26,466 nt of DNA from a virus, in IMG/VR virus record IMGVR_UViG_3300046385_000120, positions 1 through 26,466 of that record; one strand, written 5' to 3'. Below are positions 7,769 through 23,063 of this stretch, in pieces (the first letter of the stretch is position 1; the number at the start of each line of letters is the position of its first letter). The position numbers were made by a program, and so were the translations under genes. The notes under the pieces were generated by a model. That model was not told the origin of the DNA, searched no databases, and was given only the letters and a program-made list of their open reading frames with translations.

Positions 7769-8326
7769 TTACATTTGTAAAGCCTTCTCTGAATTGTCAA
7801 GAACCCTGTAAGCCTCGGCAAGAACATCAGGGTGTGCCTTTGTAAGCACTGCAAGGAGTTCACGCTTTTCAGCAAGATACACACGGGCAAACTCAGGATC
7901 ATGTGCCACGATACTCTTGGTATTTGACAAAAGATCGCAAACCTTCACGGTCTGTGCTTCAGCAGGTGCCTCAGCAGTGTGAGCACGATCTATTGCCTTG
8001 CGAACAGCACGATTGCCGTCTTCGGGCTTGGAAACGTCAGTCAACCACTGAACCAAGGTAGCGATATCGATGCCAAAAGCCATATGGATGTCAGTAAATG
8101 TGCAATCAGTGTCTTCTACAACATCGTGCAACCAGGCAGCCGCAACCATGTCAGGAGTCGATCCAGGAACGCCTGCTACGATCCTTGCAACTTCTGCAGG
8201 GTGAACAAAGTAGGGCTCTCCGGTATACTTGCGTTTTTGCTGAACAGCACTGTGAGCCGCGATAGCGAACACTTGTGCTTTTTGCACAACGTCCATACCT
8301 GTCAATTCCATAGTGAAACCTTCCAT
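7769..8326 (-). CDS. RelA/SpoT-type HD hydrolase (alarmone hydrolase-like)
   Basis: A 185-residue stand-alone HD-domain protein of the SpoT/Mesh1 hydrolase type. Metal-binding and catalytic residues are present: H42 (FVHPAE), H67-D68 with E71-D72 (LHDVVEDT), and D131/N135 (CDLLSNT). Bacterial relatives remove pyrophosphate from (p)ppGpp; there is no synthetase domain. GGAG lies 8 nt before the ATG. In a phage it could keep growth going when the host raises an alarm nucleotide; that is inference. A second copy type lies at 18370-18813. Confidence 0.83.
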   Translation of the reverse strand: MEGFTMELTGMDVVQKAQVFAIAAHSAVQQKRKYTGEPYFVHPAEVARIVAGVPGSTPDMVAAAWLHDVVEDTDCTFTDIHMAFGIDIATLVQWLTDVSKPEDGNRAVRKAIDRAHTAEAPAEAQTVKVCDLLSNTKSIVAHDPEFARVYLAEKRELLAVLTKAHPDVLAEAYRVLDNSEKALQM

Positions 8327-8533: not shown

Positions 8534-8605
8534 ATAGGTAAATAAAGGTGTAGTTCGCGATACTGGAAATATCCAACTACTCTATGATTGAAAAGGAATC
8601 ACAGC

Positions 8606-9391
8606 ATGAATATTTACTACGTTTACGCCTATCTGCGTAAATCAGATCTAACACCGTATTACATTGGCAAAGGAAACAGAGCCTGGACCAAGCACGAAGG
8701 CATTACTCTTCCAACTGACAAGAAAACTAATATTGTTATACTCGAATCAAACCTAACTGAAATTGGAGCGTTTGCCCTTGAGAGACGATATATTGAGTGG
8801 TGGGGTCGCAAGGACGCTGGCACTGGTATTTTACTAAATCGTACGGATGGCGGCCCAGGCGGCGGCGGGTATATTACCAAGGAAGAAACCCGCATCAAAC
8901 AAAGTGTTGCTAAACAAGGGAAACCAGGAAAAAAGAAAACTCCCAAACAAATTCAGAAAATGATCCAACTGCATCTTGGTAAAAAGCGCAGTGAAGAAAC
9001 CAAAGAACGTATGAGAAAAGAACGGTCAAGAAGAACTGCACTGCTTTGTCCGCATTGCGGGAAATCTTGCTTGCCCGGGAACTACCATAGATGGCACGGT
9101 GATTATTGCTTGTCTAATCCCAATGGTCTTCCTAGACTACCTTTGACATCAGTCGATCGGGATCCTAGCAAGTCAGCTATCGGGATAGAAGTAAACGGTA
9201 TTCTTTACCGATCATTGGTTGTGGCCTATACGACATTAAATCTTCCACGCAATCTATTGGGCAGCATGATCAAAGCAGGAAAGACTTATAATAATAAATG
9301 GGGAATCTTTAGTATTAAAGTGATGGATTACCATGATGATACATGTGCGGAATTTGTTGCATTTTCTGAACAATCCTGTCTAACGACATAG
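8606..9391 (+). CDS. GIY-YIG homing endonuclease (Seg-like)
   Basis: A 261-residue free-standing homing endonuclease. The GIY-YIG core is YYVYAYL...YYIGKG near residues 4-22, with the catalytic-type ERRYIEWWG helix. Then come lysine-rich NUMOD3-like repeats ([14 protein letters not shown]), a Cys/His zinc-finger-like part ([21 protein letters not shown] has four Cys and His) and a C-terminal helix-turn-helix-like DNA-binding part. AAAGGA precedes the ATG. Opposite strand to its neighbours; the last 77 nt overlap the 3' end of the phosphoesterase gene, a mark of insertion. Cuts near its own locus to spread itself. Confidence 0.88.
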
Positions 9392-9872: not shown

Positions 9873-9898
9873 TTTTGTTCTTTCTGTCTGTTGATGCT

Positions 9899-9927
9899 AT
9901 TGTACAAGGTTTTGGGCGTCTTGTCAA
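9899..9927 (-). promoter_or_regulatory. Sigma-70 promoter (P7) for the phosphoesterase gene
   Basis: TTGACA, 17 nt, TACAAT on the minus strand, followed by AGCATCAACAG. Confidence 0.82.
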
Positions 9928-9968
9928 CTGTTTTCTGTGTTTATTTCAGTGTTGTCATAAGTAATAGT

Positions 9969-10643
9969 ATGGAAACTTTATTTAAATCTAACAAATACTC
10001 AAATTGGTATTCTAACATAATACAGAATGCTGTTGATTCAAATCGTTCTAAAAGTGATAGATACTATGAGGCCCATCATATTGTGCCAAAATCATTTGGT
10101 GGCTCGAATACAAAATCTAATCTGGTGCTGTTAACTCCAAGAGAACATTTTTTATGCCACTTGCTACTACCAAAGATGATGATAGATCCAATTAAGGCAG
10201 GAAAGATGGCATATGCTTTTTTCCGTATGAAGCATAAACATACAAACAGCCGACTATTTGATCGATTTAGAAACTCATATGGAGAACTTACTAAAGGAGA
10301 AAATAATCCATTTTACAGAAGAACACATACTGCTGAAACTAAACAGAAAATATCAAGACTTGGCAAATATCACTCTGACGAATCTCGCAAGCGAATGAGC
10401 GAAGTTAAAAAAGGAAAAGCTACCGGAAAAGATAATTCAATGTTTGGAAAAACACACCCTCAAGAATGGAGGGACGCTCACTCTAGAAAATTAAGCGGTG
10501 AGAATCACTTTAACTTTGGTAAACCGAGTTTTGTTAAAGGAAGAATTTGGATCAATGATTCTAAAATTTCCAGAATGATTGATCCAACTCTATTATCTAA
10601 TTTTATTGAGCAAGGCTGGACCAAGGGAAGATTACCAAAGTAA
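9969..10643 (+). CDS. HNH homing endonuclease
   Basis: A 224-residue protein starting METLFKSNKYSNWYSNIIQN. HNH core: EAHHIVPKSFGG (H-H), KSNLVLLTPREHFLCHLLL (N...H). It is followed by NUMOD3-type repeats (AETKQKISRLGKYHSDES, GKDNSMFGKTH, GENHFNFGKP) used for DNA binding. The ATG at 9969 is preferred; the longer frame from 9891 would run through promoter P7. It lies on the plus strand between two minus-strand genes and its stop overlaps the release factor stop by 12 nt. Typical selfish insertion. Confidence 0.85.
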   Translation: METLFKSNKYSNWYSNIIQNAVDSNRSKSDRYYEAHHIVPKSFGGSNTKSNLVLLTPREHFLCHLLLPKMMIDPIKAGKMAYAFFRMKHKHTNSRLFDRFRNSYGELTKGENNPFYRRTHTAETKQKISRLGKYHSDESRKRMSEVKKGKATGKDNSMFGKTHPQEWRDAHSRKLSGENHFNFGKPSFVKGRIWINDSKISRMIDPTLLSNFIEQGWTKGRLPK

Positions 10644-11300
10644 GTCAAAGTTTCCTGCCAAAACTTTTTTAGCAGATACTTTTTTTCCAGTATTGTGGTC
10701 TTGTACCGTGTCGTCTTGGAAACGATAGGTACGAATTTTGTCACCTCTCATGCCAGATCCAACTTGCTTTTTTCGATTAGCAGAAACTTTGGCATTTATT
10801 TCTGCATTGATTCCATCATTTACTGCTTTGCACAATTCCTTGTAAGCAAGATCATAACTGGTTATTCTACTTCTTGTTTGTGAAGATCGAACTATTCCAC
10901 TAGGAAAATGTGTTAATCTACAAGAACACATTACTTTATTCCTATTCTGCCCGCCTGCGCCTGTTCCTGAATACCATTCAATGCGAAGATCGCTGTCTTT
11001 GATACTTGCGGTAACTACGGCAGGATCAACTACGGCAACGGTGACGGTGCTGGTATGCACTCGACCTTTGCGCTCAGTTGGTGGAACACGCTGTATTCGG
11101 TGTCCACCGGGCTCGTTGTATAAGCCAGATAAATCAGCACCCTCGACTAGAATATGAACTTCGCCAAGATACTCATTTATCAGGCGGGTAGCTCAGCCTT
11201 TGCTTTGGGCGAACTTAATATAGGCTTGTGCCAAATCTTTTACAAATAGTTTTGAGTCTTCGCCACCTTCGGCAGCACGGACTTCAATGATTCTACGCAT
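10632..11300 (-). CDS. RF1-like peptide chain release factor with in-frame UGA
   Basis: A 222-codon class I release factor lacking domain 1. Visible are the start of domain 2 (RRIIEVRAAEGGEDSKLF), the codon-recognition loop GGHRIQRVPPTERKGRVHTS with PPT at 73-75 in place of RF1 PxT (so UAA/UAG specificity is expected), the catalytic GGQ at 116-118 (SGTGAGGQNRN), and the RF1 tail GSGMRGDKIRTYRF. Codon 36 (11193-11195) is UGA with no change of frame afterwards. In bacterial RF1/RF2 this place holds Trp or Phe (ARRW, SRGF). A good AAGGA precedes the ATG at 11300. The 3' end abuts the HNH gene. Could be read through, a pseudogene, or a sequencing error. Confidence 0.75.
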
Positions 11301-11361
11301 GATTTTCCTTTCGTTTGCGTTGCGCTTCGCGCCTTGCTTCTGACCAACCTCTGTTTTTCAT
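11293..11361 (-). CDS. Possible 22-aa basic leader peptide
   Basis: MKNRGWSEARREAQRKRKEN HA, ending TAG just inside the release factor start (overlap 8 nt), with the release factor ribosome-binding site inside its last codons. No strong ribosome-binding site of its own was seen. It might be a coupled leader peptide for the release factor gene, or chance. Confidence 0.3.
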   Translation of the reverse strand: MKNRGWSEARREAQRKRKENHA

Positions 11362-16531: not shown

Positions 16532-16605
16532 TGGCGTACCGACTAGGACTCGAACCTAGAATGTTGCTTTTGGAGAACAAAGTGTTGCCATTACACTATC
16601 GATAC
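16532..16605 (-). tRNA. tRNA-Trp(CCA)
   Basis: Acceptor GTATCGA/TCGGTAC with one wobble, anticodon loop CTCCAAA on TTGTT/AGCAA, discriminator G, encoded CCA. Its first 15 bases are also the last codons of the GIY-YIG gene upstream. Confidence 0.91.
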
Positions 16606-17214
16606 ATTTTTCTTTCGAGGAAGCCCACCTTTCGCCCACTCTGTATTTTCATATTTTACTAATTCATCATTTGATATTCGTTTAGCAATGATACCATTAT
16701 TGATTAATATCTTCCCTAGGTTCGCGTCTGCTACTCGGCTACGGTGTGTAGCAGAGCAAGTTCTACCGGTCAGCGACGTTGACACTTTCCTAGCAGTATC
16801 TTTATTTTTCATTCCGCTATTTACGGATAATTTTCTTCGTTTTTCATCTGTTGTAACTTGTTTCAAAGATGCTTGACGTTGTTTTTCTTTAGTTTCTTCG
16901 GAATGTTTCTTGCCTTTAAACGCTCCCACTATTCCAGGATTGCCGCCACTACCACCTATTTTTAAGTTATAAGTTTGCGTGTCTTTTACTAAATCTTCGT
17001 TTACTATGTTGCGTTCTAGTTCAAACATCTCTTCTTTTGAAGAAGCGCAATAAAGTATTTCAAATTTAAAATTTTCTTTACCATATTTTGTTATAGCATA
17101 CCGCAGATGTTTTCCAGAACCTAAATATCCATCTTTAAGATTATCAGTTTGGTGGCAACCTATATAATATTTGCCGTTTATCTCGTTTGTAGTTTTGTAA
17201 ATTATATAATTCAT
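16591..17214 (-). CDS. GIY-YIG homing endonuclease (SegB-like)
   Basis: A 207-residue protein starting MNYIIYKTTNEINGKYYIGC: the GIY-YIG pair appears as YIIYKT...YYIGCH, with the helix KEEMFELERNIVNEDL carrying the catalytic Glu. NUMOD3-type repeats (GKKHSEETKEKQRQASL) and a C-terminal DNA-binding tail (ILINNGIIAKRISNDELV) follow. The ATG at 17214 starts the motif; the 218-residue version is less likely. Its stop lies inside tRNA-Trp (15-nt overlap). T4 SegB likewise sits in a tRNA cluster and spreads it, which is an attractive parallel. Confidence 0.88.
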   Translation of the reverse strand: MNYIIYKTTNEINGKYYIGCHQTDNLKDGYLGSGKHLRYAITKYGKENFKFEILYCASSKEEMFELERNIVNEDLVKDTQTYNLKIGGSGGNPGIVGAFKGKKHSEETKEKQRQASLKQVTTDEKRRKLSVNSGMKNKDTARKVSTSLTGRTCSATHRSRVADANLGKILINNGIIAKRISNDELVKYENTEWAKGGLPRKKNVSIV

Positions 17215-17267
17215 ATCTTTATTTATACAAAACCGCCATGCTGCCATTACATTAGCAACCCTTATAC

Positions 17268-18344: not shown

Positions 18345-18373
18345 ATTATAGCATCAACTTGAACACTTGTCAA
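18345..18373 (-). promoter_or_regulatory. Sigma-70 promoter (P12)
   Basis: TTGACA, 17 nt, TATAAT, then AAACACAAGAAGG. The -35 box overlaps the UGA stop of the HD gene. Its only downstream sequence before P11 is a 9-bp hairpin (GACAAGTAG/CTACTTGTC, 18303-18330), so the two promoters may act in tandem. Confidence 0.85.
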
Positions 18374-18813
18374 GCTAATTTTGCTCTAATTTCCATATAA
18401 AACTGATGATACTTTGCCATACGTGCAATGTCTTTTTCAGTAACACCCTTTAGGCGTCGGATGTCTGTGTTGTGGCGCAGATCGGCCATCTTCACTCGCA
18501 TCGCATCTTCGCTGCCAAACACGCCTTCTTTGTACTCATCGTAAGTTTGACCTGGTTGCTTAGTTAGGCAACGGATGCCGGCAATAACTCTTTCAGAAAT
18601 GCCTGCTTCACGTAAGTCCTTGTAAGTAACACTAGTGTCTTCGATGACATCATGTCCCAATGCCATACACATCAGCTCTTCGTCATCTGACTTGAGATAA
18701 TGCATAACTTTCAGTGGGTGCAGAATGTAAGGGTTGCCACCTTTGTCAAACTGACCATGGTGAGCAGTGGTTGCAATGTGCAACATTTGGGCTAACATTT
18801 CACCTTTTCTCAT
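18370..18813 (-). CDS. SpoT/Mesh1-like HD hydrolase
   Basis: A 147-residue HD-domain protein: H32 (ILHPLK), H54-D55 with E58-D59 (GHDVIEDT), D111/N115 (KMADLRHNTDIRRLKG). These are the metal and catalytic residues of the (p)ppGpp 3'-pyrophosphohydrolase half of SpoT; no synthetase or ACT/TGS domain. The ATG at 18813 has AAAGG upstream; the GTG at 18822 is less likely. It differs from the HD protein at 7769-8326, so the phage has two. UGA stop inside the -35 box of P12. Likely lowers host alarm nucleotides (inference). Confidence 0.85.
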   Translation of the reverse strand: MRKGEMLAQMLHIATTAHHGQFDKGGNPYILHPLKVMHYLKSDDEELMCMALGHDVIEDTSVTYKDLREAGISERVIAGIRCLTKQPGQTYDEYKEGVFGSEDAMRVKMADLRHNTDIRRLKGVTEKDIARMAKYHQFYMEIRAKLA

Positions 18814-18843
18814 TTTGAACACCTTTCTACTTACTGTACTTAC

Positions 18844-19371: not shown

Positions 19372-20865
19372 TCAGTTACGAATCAGGTAGTCAAACGCAC
19401 CAAGTGCGGCATTAGCACCAGAACCCATACTAATGATGATCTGCTTGTAGGCAGCATTAGTACAGTCACCTGCGGCAAACACACCCGGAACACTGGTAGC
19501 ACCGTGTCCGTCAACGATCACTTGTCCGAAACGATCTTTCTCAACGTCAAGGAACTCTGTGTTGGGCACTAGACCAATTTGAACAAACACACCTTCCAGG
19601 GCCAGTTGTTTCTCGGTACCAGTAGTACGGTCCACATAGGAGACGCCATTGACCTTATCAGCGCCGGTAATAGCTTTGACCTGAACGTTGGTATGTACTG
19701 TGACATTAGACAAACTACGCAGACGTTTCTGTAGCACAGCATCTGCTTTCATTTCTGGCATGAATTCAAACACAGTTACATGTCCAACAATACCTGCCAG
19801 GTCAATAGCAGCTTCTACACCTGAGTTACCGCCGCCTACCACTGCCACGTGCTTGTTCTTGAACAATGGGCCATCACAGTGCGGGCAGTAGGCAACACCT
19901 TTGTTCTTGAACTCTGCTTCACCAGGAACACCCAAGTTTCTCCAACGAGCACCAGTTGAGATGATCACAGTCTTACTCTTAAGAGTAGCACCTGACTCTA
20001 GTTCAACTTCAATCATGTCATTTCGTGTGATGCTTTTTGCTCGTTGTAAGTTCATTACATCCACAGCATACTCTTTGACATGTTCTTCCAACTGAGCAAC
20101 CAGCTCGGGACCTTCTGTGTATTTTGTACCAATAAGATTTTCAATACCCATTGTGTCCATAACTTGGCCGCCAAAGCGTTCAGCAACGATACCTGTACGG
20201 ATACCTTTACGAGCTGCATACACCGCCGCACTAGCACCTGCTGGTCCGCCACCGATGACTAACACATCGTACTCTTTGCCGTCGATGTCCGATACATCTG
20301 CTTGGCTACCCATCTTGGCCAGTATTTCTTCCAGTGTCATACGACCTGAGCCAAATGCTTCTCCGTTGAGTTCTACATAAGGAACAGCTAAAATATTCTT
20401 AGCAGTTACTTCCGCTTGGAACTCGGCACCGTCGACCATTGAGTGCTTGATGCCAGGGTTCAATACACTCATAATGTTAAGTGCTTGAACAACATCTGGA
20501 CAGTTGTGGCAGCTTAGGCTGATGTAGGTTGTGAAGCTGTAGTCGCCGCGAATGTTCTTGATCTGATCAATAACTTTGTCGTCTACTTTAGGCTTGCGTC
20601 CACTTACCTGTAACAAGGCCATGATCAAGCTGGTGAACTCGTGTCCCATAGGAACACCAGCAAAGGTCACACAATCCCCAATTTGGAAACTAGGTGTACG
20701 CGGTAGTTCAGCAGACTCAACATGAATCTTTGAGGACATGGCTGCTAGCTCATTAACAAGCTCTGTCATCTCGGTATTGCTGCCAGCACTAACTTTAATA
20801 GTGATGTCACCTTCCATCAAGGCAAGGTATTGTTCTAATTGTTGTTTAACTTGTGCGTCTAGCAT
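19372..20865 (-). CDS. ahpF: Alkyl hydroperoxide reductase subunit F
   Basis: A 497-residue flavoprotein that looks complete compared with E. coli AhpF (521). It has the N-terminal double-thioredoxin-fold domain with CHNC at 119-122 ([15 protein letters not shown]), FAD site VIGGGPAG near 204-210, NAD site VVGGGNSG near 342-349, and TrxR-like redox motif CPHC at 327-330 ([10 protein letters not shown]). Using NADH it would reduce the AhpC disulfide through its N-terminal CxxC. The ATG at 20865 lies 2 nt after the stop of a 42-residue membrane gene and uses a GGGGAT ribosome-binding site. Ends TGA TAA. Phage-borne full AhpF is unusual; recent gain from a proteobacterium is likely. Confidence 0.95.
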
Positions 20866-20867
20866 TT

Positions 20868-20996
20868 TTATCCCCAAAAAATCTTATACAGAATTACGCA
20901 TTGAAGCGTGATGATAATGACCGGCGCAATACTTCTCAGTAGTTCGAGCCTATAATGATACTTCTTGATTTTCTTTTCAAAGTCATTGCCGGTCAT
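20868..20996 (-). CDS. 42-aa single-TM protein between ahpC and ahpF
   Basis: MTGNDFEKKIKKYHYRLELL then a membrane helix (IAPVIIITLQCVILYKIF). GGAG lies 5 nt before the ATG. The stop is 2 nt from the ahpF ATG, and the ahpC stop is 9 nt upstream, so it is firmly within the ahpCF operon. No such gene is normally found between bacterial ahpC and ahpF; function unknown. Confidence 0.68.
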   Translation of the reverse strand: MTGNDFEKKIKKYHYRLELLRSIAPVIIITLQCVILYKIFWG

Positions 20997-21005
20997 ATTG
21001 TCTCC

Positions 21006-21569
21006 TTAGATCTTACCTACAAGATCAATGCTAGGTGCTAGAGTCTTGGCACCTTCTTTCCACTTGGCAGGGCAAACTTGTCCTGGGTTAGCGGCAGTGT
21101 ATTGTGCTGCCTTCAACTTACGAAGCGTTTCAGCCACGTCACGAGCAATTTCGTTTGAGTGTACTTCTGCTGTCTTGACAACGCCTTCTGGGTTGATGAT
21201 GAATGTGCCGCGTAGTGCCAGACCTTCAGCATCAATGTGAACACCGAACCCGCGTGTCAAGGTATGAGTTGGGTCGCCTACCAATGGGAAACGTGCCTTG
21301 CCTACTGCTGGACTTGTTTCGTGCCAGACTTTGTGGCTGAAATGTGTGTCTGTCGTAACAATATAGACTTCTGCGCCCATCTTTTCAAATTCGGCGTAGT
21401 TGTCTGCGGCGTCTTCAATTTCAGTTGGGCAGTTGAATGTAAATGCAGCTGGCATAAAGATGAATACGTTCCACTTGCCTTTTACACTTTCGTCGGTGAC
21501 TTCAACAAACTTACCATTGTGGTAGGCCTGTGTCTTAAAGACGGGGATGGATTGATTGATAATTGACAT
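21006..21569 (-). CDS. ahpC: Peroxiredoxin AhpC
   Basis: A 187-residue typical 2-Cys peroxiredoxin (Prx1/AhpC). Active-site motif PAAFTFNC with P40, T44 and peroxidatic C47; conserved R120 (ALRGTF); resolving C166 in GQVCPAKWK; ends DLVGKI as in proteobacterial AhpC. It reduces H2O2, organic peroxides and peroxynitrite and is re-reduced by AhpF. Unusual is MPAAFTFNCPTE where bacteria have YPADFTFVCPTE. AAGGAG precedes the ATG. First gene of an operon from promoter P15. Confidence 0.95.
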   Translation of the reverse strand: MSIINQSIPVFKTQAYHNGKFVEVTDESVKGKWNVFIFMPAAFTFNCPTEIEDAADNYAEFEKMGAEVYIVTTDTHFSHKVWHETSPAVGKARFPLVGDPTHTLTRGFGVHIDAEGLALRGTFIINPEGVVKTAEVHSNEIARDVAETLRKLKAAQYTAANPGQVCPAKWKEGAKTLAPSIDLVGKI

Positions 21570-22552: not shown

Positions 22553-22631
22553 TGGTCTCGGGTGAGGGATTTGAACTCTCATTATTCCTCGTCCCAAACG
22601 AGGTGCCATGACCAGATTAGGCGAACCCGAG
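22553..22631 (-). tRNA. tRNA-Pro(TGG), copy 4
   Basis: Acceptor CTCGGGT/ACCCGAG, anticodon loop TTTGGGA on CCTCG/CGAGG, encoded ACCA. Its first 15 bases are also the end of the HNH gene upstream. Confidence 0.9.
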
Positions 22632-23063
22632 TCTAACTCTTACATACTCGTCTATTGTAGGTTGTACCTCGCCAACATAACGACTATGCACATAACTATG
22701 ATGCGTAGGACAAAGCGGAACTAAATTGTTAGGATCATTATTTTCATGATTGTGATCATAATGATGAACTGCTACAATCTTATCCTCACCACATACTACA
22801 CACTTCTTTTCGTGATGTAAGAAACAAATGGATTGATAGTTTTCACCTTTCCAATTACCGTTGTCTTCACCACTTCTAAAATGTTTGTTTGCACAACTTC
22901 GACTACAAGTACCTTTTGATCCTTTATAGTTTTTTATTGGCTTACTACAAACTGCACACCCGACTACATTAATAGGATTCAAAAAACATGATGTTTCATG
23001 CTTCTTTATATTGCCTACAGTAGTTTCTTTAGCACAATGTACGCAACCTATCTTACGATTCAT
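22617..23063 (-). CDS. HNH endonuclease in the tRNA array
   Basis: A 148-residue protein with zinc-binding Cys pairs (CVHC, CAVC, CSRSC, CVVC) and an HNH core VAVHHYDHNHENNDPNNLVPLCPTHH. The N-terminus (MNRKIGCVHCAKETTVGNIK) resembles a C2HC finger. The stop lies in tRNA-Pro (15-nt overlap). The ribosome-binding site is weak. Probably a homing endonuclease that targets a tRNA locus. Confidence 0.85.
   Translation of the reverse strand: MNRKIGCVHCAKETTVGNIKKHETSCFLNPINVVGCAVCSKPIKNYKGSKGTCSRSCANKHFRSGEDNGNWKGENYQSICFLHHEKKCVVCGEDKIVAVHHYDHNHENNDPNNLVPLCPTHHSYVHSRYVGEVQPTIDEYVRVRLGFA

Follow-up and report, generated by a model that had tools for sequence, protein, structure and literature searches.

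Large phages carry a short RF1-like release factor gene with a UGA in frame at codon 36, and comparison of relatives confirms that this UGA is real, conserved and selected. There is strong support for obligatory recoding, in which the full-length factor would require the UGA to be read as sense. We propose that the phage factor comes from programmed readthrough and is produced only under slow termination, a reading that we give a probability of roughly 0.8; its regulatory logic is inferred, since no expression, ribosome profiling or mass-spectrometry data exist. The gene lies in a stretch of viral DNA of 26,466 nucleotides, the whole of which is called the window below (Table 1). Three elements go beyond the original prediction for this DNA: the UGA is followed by a stem-loop, recoding is the rule in almost the whole family, and other branches of that family use +1 frameshifting.

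An RF1-like gene with a conserved in-frame UGA

By its sequence, the window gene is an RF1-like class-I release factor gene without domain 1; release at UAA and UAG is predicted, without biochemistry. The original prediction had given the same coordinates, to which the minus strand must be added, and had described the frame as RF1-like and intact on both sides of the UGA, with no frame change. Indeed, the frame is open on both sides, and Pfam matches to PCRF (5.5e-21) and RF-1 (5.1e-19) make the two sides one protein, which reads in order MRRIIEVRAAEGGEDSKLF...KG-UGA-ATRLINEY...VPPTERKGRVHTS...GTGAGGQ.... The RF1 equivalog model also matches (4.4e-55, under its full-length cut-off), and relatives of the gene have AAGGAG-like sites. 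Domain 1 is considered absent because alignment with solved RF1 structures holds only from approximately residue 112 of E. coli RF1 onward. The same alignment puts codon 36 on the Trp of bacterial RF1, in agreement with the earlier placing of the UGA at a Trp/Phe position. An AlphaFold2 model (pLDDT 79) was closest to Thermus thermophilus RF1 on the ribosome (E 1.9e-17), and identity to bacterial RF1 was about 34% in the fold search.

The factor thus shares the PCRF and RF-1 domains, PxT and GGQ with bacterial RF1 (prfA), but differs from it in being recoded and in lacking domain 1. PrfH is likewise short, with GGQ and no domain 1, whereas the window factor has the RF1-type recognition loop and matches the PrfH family model only weakly (40.4 bits, under the cut-off of 166.65). 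PPT and GGQ are invariant across 12 diverse family members. The PPT motif, together with the Q and T of the QR.PPT loop, predicts a UAA/UAG reader, though PPT alone is no proof that UGA is ignored.

Table 1. Features of the release factor gene and a candidate UGA-reading tRNA in the window.
Feature	Position	Strand	Remarks
Phage RF1-like release factor gene	10632..11300	-	222 aa, domain 1 missing, in-frame UGA at codon 36; start ATG at 11300, terminal UAA ends at 10632
Shine-Dalgarno-like AAGGA 5′ of the ATG	11306..11310	-	Read from the sequence
Open frame before the UGA, 35 codons, first part of RF1 domain 2, RAAEGGEDSKLF	11196..11300	-	
In-frame UGA, codon 36, conserved Trp position	11193..11195	-	Next base is G in the window
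PPT stop-codon recognition motif, codons 73-75	11076..11084	-	
GGQ catalytic motif, codons 116-118	10947..10955	-	
Conserved stem-loop	11124..11185	-	Starts 7 nt past the UGA; arms 11168-11185 and 11124-11141
Phage tRNA-Trp(CCA), candidate UGA reader	16532..16605	-	U11-A24 in the D stem, hand numbering

A first scan of viral contigs found 35 relatives, and TGA stands at codon 36 in all 34 complete genes, that of the window included, and in one truncated gene. A profile scan extended the set to 202 relatives, where the 115 loci with TGA include every relative above 62% identity; the codon is kept down to 47% identity (L119). After removal of duplicates, every clade gene that could be parsed, 117 unique genes, has it, and a sense codon at this position is absent from all close relatives. 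The peptide patterns used to fetch relatives did not span codon 36, so this invariance was not built into the search. Pairs of moderate divergence give a dN/dS of about 0.11 for the part before the UGA and 0.14 for the part after it, and neither flank is therefore decaying. Either UGG in close relatives or decay of the gene would have refuted the original prediction, and it survives on both counts, with an invariant UGA in the clade and purifying selection on both flanks. A nucleotide search of phage genomes gave no match. Matches in 'phage' records named after Listeria, Staphylococcus, Acinetobacter and others were excluded, as they look like carried-over bacterial prfA or prfB.

A single in-frame stop in one contig could have come from a genome-wide UGA=Trp code, a pseudogene or a sequencing error. 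These origins are ruled out, with next to no chance left to them, by the codon being common to 117 unique genes, by the low dN/dS, and by the use of UGA as the end of 95 of 338 and 205 of 452 long open reading frames in two relatives with large genomes, of which 354 kb and 400 kb were searched. The phages use the standard code. When these two large genomes were compared for in-frame UGA, the release factor gene, recovered as the positive control, stood alone as a clear case in which homology continues across a UGA shared by the two, while the other hits were weak and mixed in codon; the comparison covers one genome pair and is no census.

Signals around the UGA and the residue inserted

Of 116 genes, 73% have A directly 3′ of the UGA, 23% have G and 3% have C, and none has U; a U at +4 is reported to lower readthrough (PMC5289835). 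Synonymous constraint rises about 2-fold over expectation in windows between codons -5 and +15 relative to the UGA; over most of the gene the ratio is near 1.1, with a weaker second rise at the 3′ arm of a stem-loop and another farther downstream. In this stem-loop, nucleotides 11-28 pair with 55-72, counted from the UGA. Compared with codon-preserving shuffles, the 75-nt window from the UGA has a mean folding z of -3.47, with 87% of values below -2, and no other window of the gene averages below -1.5. Among 20 diverse sequences, 96% of cells in this register pair, against 30-42% in slid versions, and two-sided changes occupy 24 cells against 8.9 in shuffles. The register was also the best of all tested among 100 sequences. 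Around 20 divergent clade members have other hairpins, not in the same register.

With this 3′ structure and no U at +4, the stimulatory context for readthrough is met as far as sequence can tell. The same holds for programmed stop-codon readthrough as such, for which the frame is the same, the stop is conserved and there is coding selection on both sides. As selection keeps both the UGA and the stem-loop just after it, we interpret the UGA as a site of programmed readthrough.

Two genes nested in the UGA clade on the tree, L120 and L135, provide a natural control for the residue inserted: they have gone over to +1 shifting at CTT TAG C, and both have UGG at codon 36. The UGA is thus most likely read as Trp, and the original prediction that UGG, and hence Trp, is the residue restored gains support from these two natural revertants. 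A hairpin directly 3′ of a UGA might also be taken for a SECIS element, with selenocysteine (or Cys) inserted, and UGC and UGU do occur at UGA-aligned sites in a distant branch (L336). This appears highly improbable, given that the sense codon within the clade is UGG and that bacterial RF1 has Trp at the position; Sec or Cys at the aligned position was not found in close relatives.

The window and its large relatives encode a tRNA-Trp(CCA), with A at position 24 (hand numbering) in the window copy, in both copies of the relative G001 and in one copy of G004. An A at this position also occurs in some ordinary bacterial tRNAs, and it is therefore only suggestive of a UGA-reading phage tRNA-Trp. 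The Hirsh UGA suppressor of E. coli is a G24A change in tRNA-Trp (PMC11805395). Separately, nine loci, including L203:14391-14465 in G001 and a site near 53129 in G004, hold tRNA genes whose anticodon is CUA and which ARAGORN labels Pyl; they are candidate amber suppressors, and the phages that carry them use UAG for termination.

Recoding modes across the family

The wider family comprises 206 unique genes, mostly from huge phages, together with metagenome-assembled genomes, an Achromobacter contig and Variovorax megaplasmids. In-frame stops are present in 144 of these (130 with a single UGA, 11 with a double UGA, 2 with UGA and UAG, 1 with UAG) and a frame change in 56, leaving 6 intact genes. 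Three of the six (L125, L127 and L128, from Patescibacteria and similar) belong to another family by their motif and sit on a long branch, and were not counted. Truly intact members therefore number 3 of about 203 (L392, L121 and L122), and their lack of an internal stop or shift probably reflects losses; they are useful for natural comparison.

CTT precedes the stop in 55 of the 56 frame changes, the stop being UGA in 37, UAG in 16 and UAA in 2. The base after the stop is C at 42 of the CTT-stop sites, and a Shine-Dalgarno-like word is found at 43 of the 55 (shuffled mean 28.8, maximum 34), mostly 3 nt before the CTT. The remaining gene, L345, has an in-frame UGA followed by CTT TAG C. The site in the Achromobacter anxifer contig, CTATCTTTGAC, is close to that of E. 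coli prfB. The family tree requires the type of recoding to change 26 times, and close pairs differ, as with L335 (double UGA) and L336 (CTT TAG), or L368 (UGA) and L325 (UAG). The family is thus almost always recoded, with close relatives switching modes. The original prediction had set the gene apart from bacterial RF2; this stands for the window gene, whose frame is unchanged, and fails for the family, where other branches use +1 shifting.

Judged from the Variovorax megaplasmid copies, the gene is not confined to phages. Plasmid 2 of Variovorax sp. WDL1 (NZ_LR594690) holds a member with an in-frame TGA (L409, 3800-4492), and the RefSeq protein WP_068673472 begins past this TGA, without the first part of domain 2. 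That annotation would fit a gene with two products, one a peptide of 35 aa and the other a factor with its start past the UGA. We find this very unlikely, however, as the first 35 codons encode a stretch of domain 2 that is conserved and held by purifying selection, and the relatives with +1 shifts need both halves joined. Standard gene callers truncate these release factor genes.

Proposed mechanism and relation to known systems

In the proposed mechanism, output of the phage factor would be proportional to the slowness of UGA termination. Ribosomes would stop after 35 codons as long as host RF2, or release capacity as a whole, is plentiful; once phage mRNAs exhaust that capacity, a near-cognate Trp-tRNA, perhaps the phage's own, would read the UGA and the full factor would be made. 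The new factor could then ease the shortage in one of two ways. If it terminates at UGA, the feedback loop would be direct. A factor that reads UAA and UAG only would, as its level rises, relieve RF2 of UAA, which is the most frequent stop codon in these phages, and the loop would close through RF2. Other branches of the family may reach the same end via a +1 shift at CTT-stop. Mutations in prfB raise UGA readthrough in Bacillus subtilis, according to PMC7918605, which cites Karow 1998; control by RF2 activity in the phages is nonetheless an inference, and RF2 is not marked out as the sensor by shift sites whose stops may be UGA, UAG or UAA.

Since PPT predicts a UAA/UAG reader, strict autoregulation via UGA is not obvious. 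It would require the mini-factor to read all stops, or at least UGA, despite PPT, and to limit itself like RF2. An omnipotent factor could use any stop, and the internal stops of relatives with the same PPT loop are UGA, UAG or UAA, even differing between close relatives (L368 and L325). This mixture in the shift sites keeps a UGA-reading factor possible. The RF1-like motif and sequence, with the Q and T of QR.PPT, nevertheless predict UAA and UAG only, and the L325 loop differs as well, so we regard strict self-limitation as possible but doubtful. A tentative idea, which we would not favor on present comparisons, is an omnipotent phage factor balanced by recoding at its own internal stop, where stop and mode would swap freely and any stop would report its activity.

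Readthrough might also set a low constant level of a factor harmful in excess, with no sensing involved. Release factor overproduction harms bacteria, RF2 more than RF1 (PMC12421855), and the stem-loop could set a constant fraction. A weak start site would do equally well, however, and sensing is suggested by the way in which a factor for stop codons relies on stop-codon events again and again; a fixed dosage therefore seems unlikely to us. Programmed readthrough that responds to slow termination remains our preferred reading, and it turns the benefit to a phage of sensing termination into a directly testable question.

Control of RF2 by a +1 shift is textbook knowledge. As in the phage genes, prfB has an early internal stop and the full factor arises only after recoding (PMC12421855, PMC5009743). 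The frameshift branch of the phage family resembles prfB further in its CTT-stop-C site and the Shine-Dalgarno-like word about 3 nt upstream. Unlike prfB, the window gene is RF1-like and keeps its frame, such that the prfB-type CTT-stop-C signature is missing there and present in sister branches. A 2025 survey found UAG in none of 8,164 prfB sites and no programmed shift in prfA (PMC12421855), whereas UAG is used at 16 shift sites of the phage family, in which +1 shifting has been adopted repeatedly. A review recounts that, until release factor genes were sequenced, an early in-frame UGA was suspected to control RF2 by being read through; it finds this form in no sequenced bacterial RF2 gene, lists an RF1 counterpart as unknown, and names a giant-virus factor as the exception (PMC5009743). 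The arrangement once suspected now appears, as we read it, in large phages, where the gene of an RF1-like factor also carries an RNA element on the 3′ side.

The giant-virus case, Mimivirus R726 and Megavirus mg280, is likewise a viral release factor that combines UGA readthrough, for which Trp was proposed, with +1 shifting, the shift site being CUU UAG C or CUU UAA C (PMC3521657); the phage gene L345 joins the same two elements. There, as in the phages, the D arm of a Trp-tRNA has a Hirsh-like A. The giant-virus factor is of the eRF1/aRF1 type and from amoeba viruses, whereas the phage factor, a homologue of bacterial RF1, is a bacterial-type parallel, found in hundreds of genes and with a covarying 3′ stem-loop. 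We found no earlier report of such recoding in phages in the literature searched, which included few subscription papers and no bioRxiv; the passages located in a study of huge phages (PMC7162821) report RF1 and RF2 genes and do not mention recoding.

Several neighboring genes in the window were noted in passing. Homing-endonuclease-like genes (8588-9391, 9891-10643, 16591-17247 and 22617-23063; HNH/NUMOD3, or GIY-YIG-like by eye or weak match) stand among the 34 tRNA genes of the window and end no more than 12 bases from the release factor gene. Two HD-domain proteins (HD_4; 7769-8326 and 18370-18822, the second under the Pfam cut-off) are similar to ppGpp hydrolases. A serine hydrolase of the beta-lactamase family (1269-2402, Pfam PF00144) is assigned by fold family only, with no evidence of resistance. 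Lastly, an AhpF-like flavin disulphide reductase with a thioredoxin-like domain (19372-20877) adjoins an AhpC/TSA peroxiredoxin (21006-21569), possibly forming a phage peroxide defense pair.
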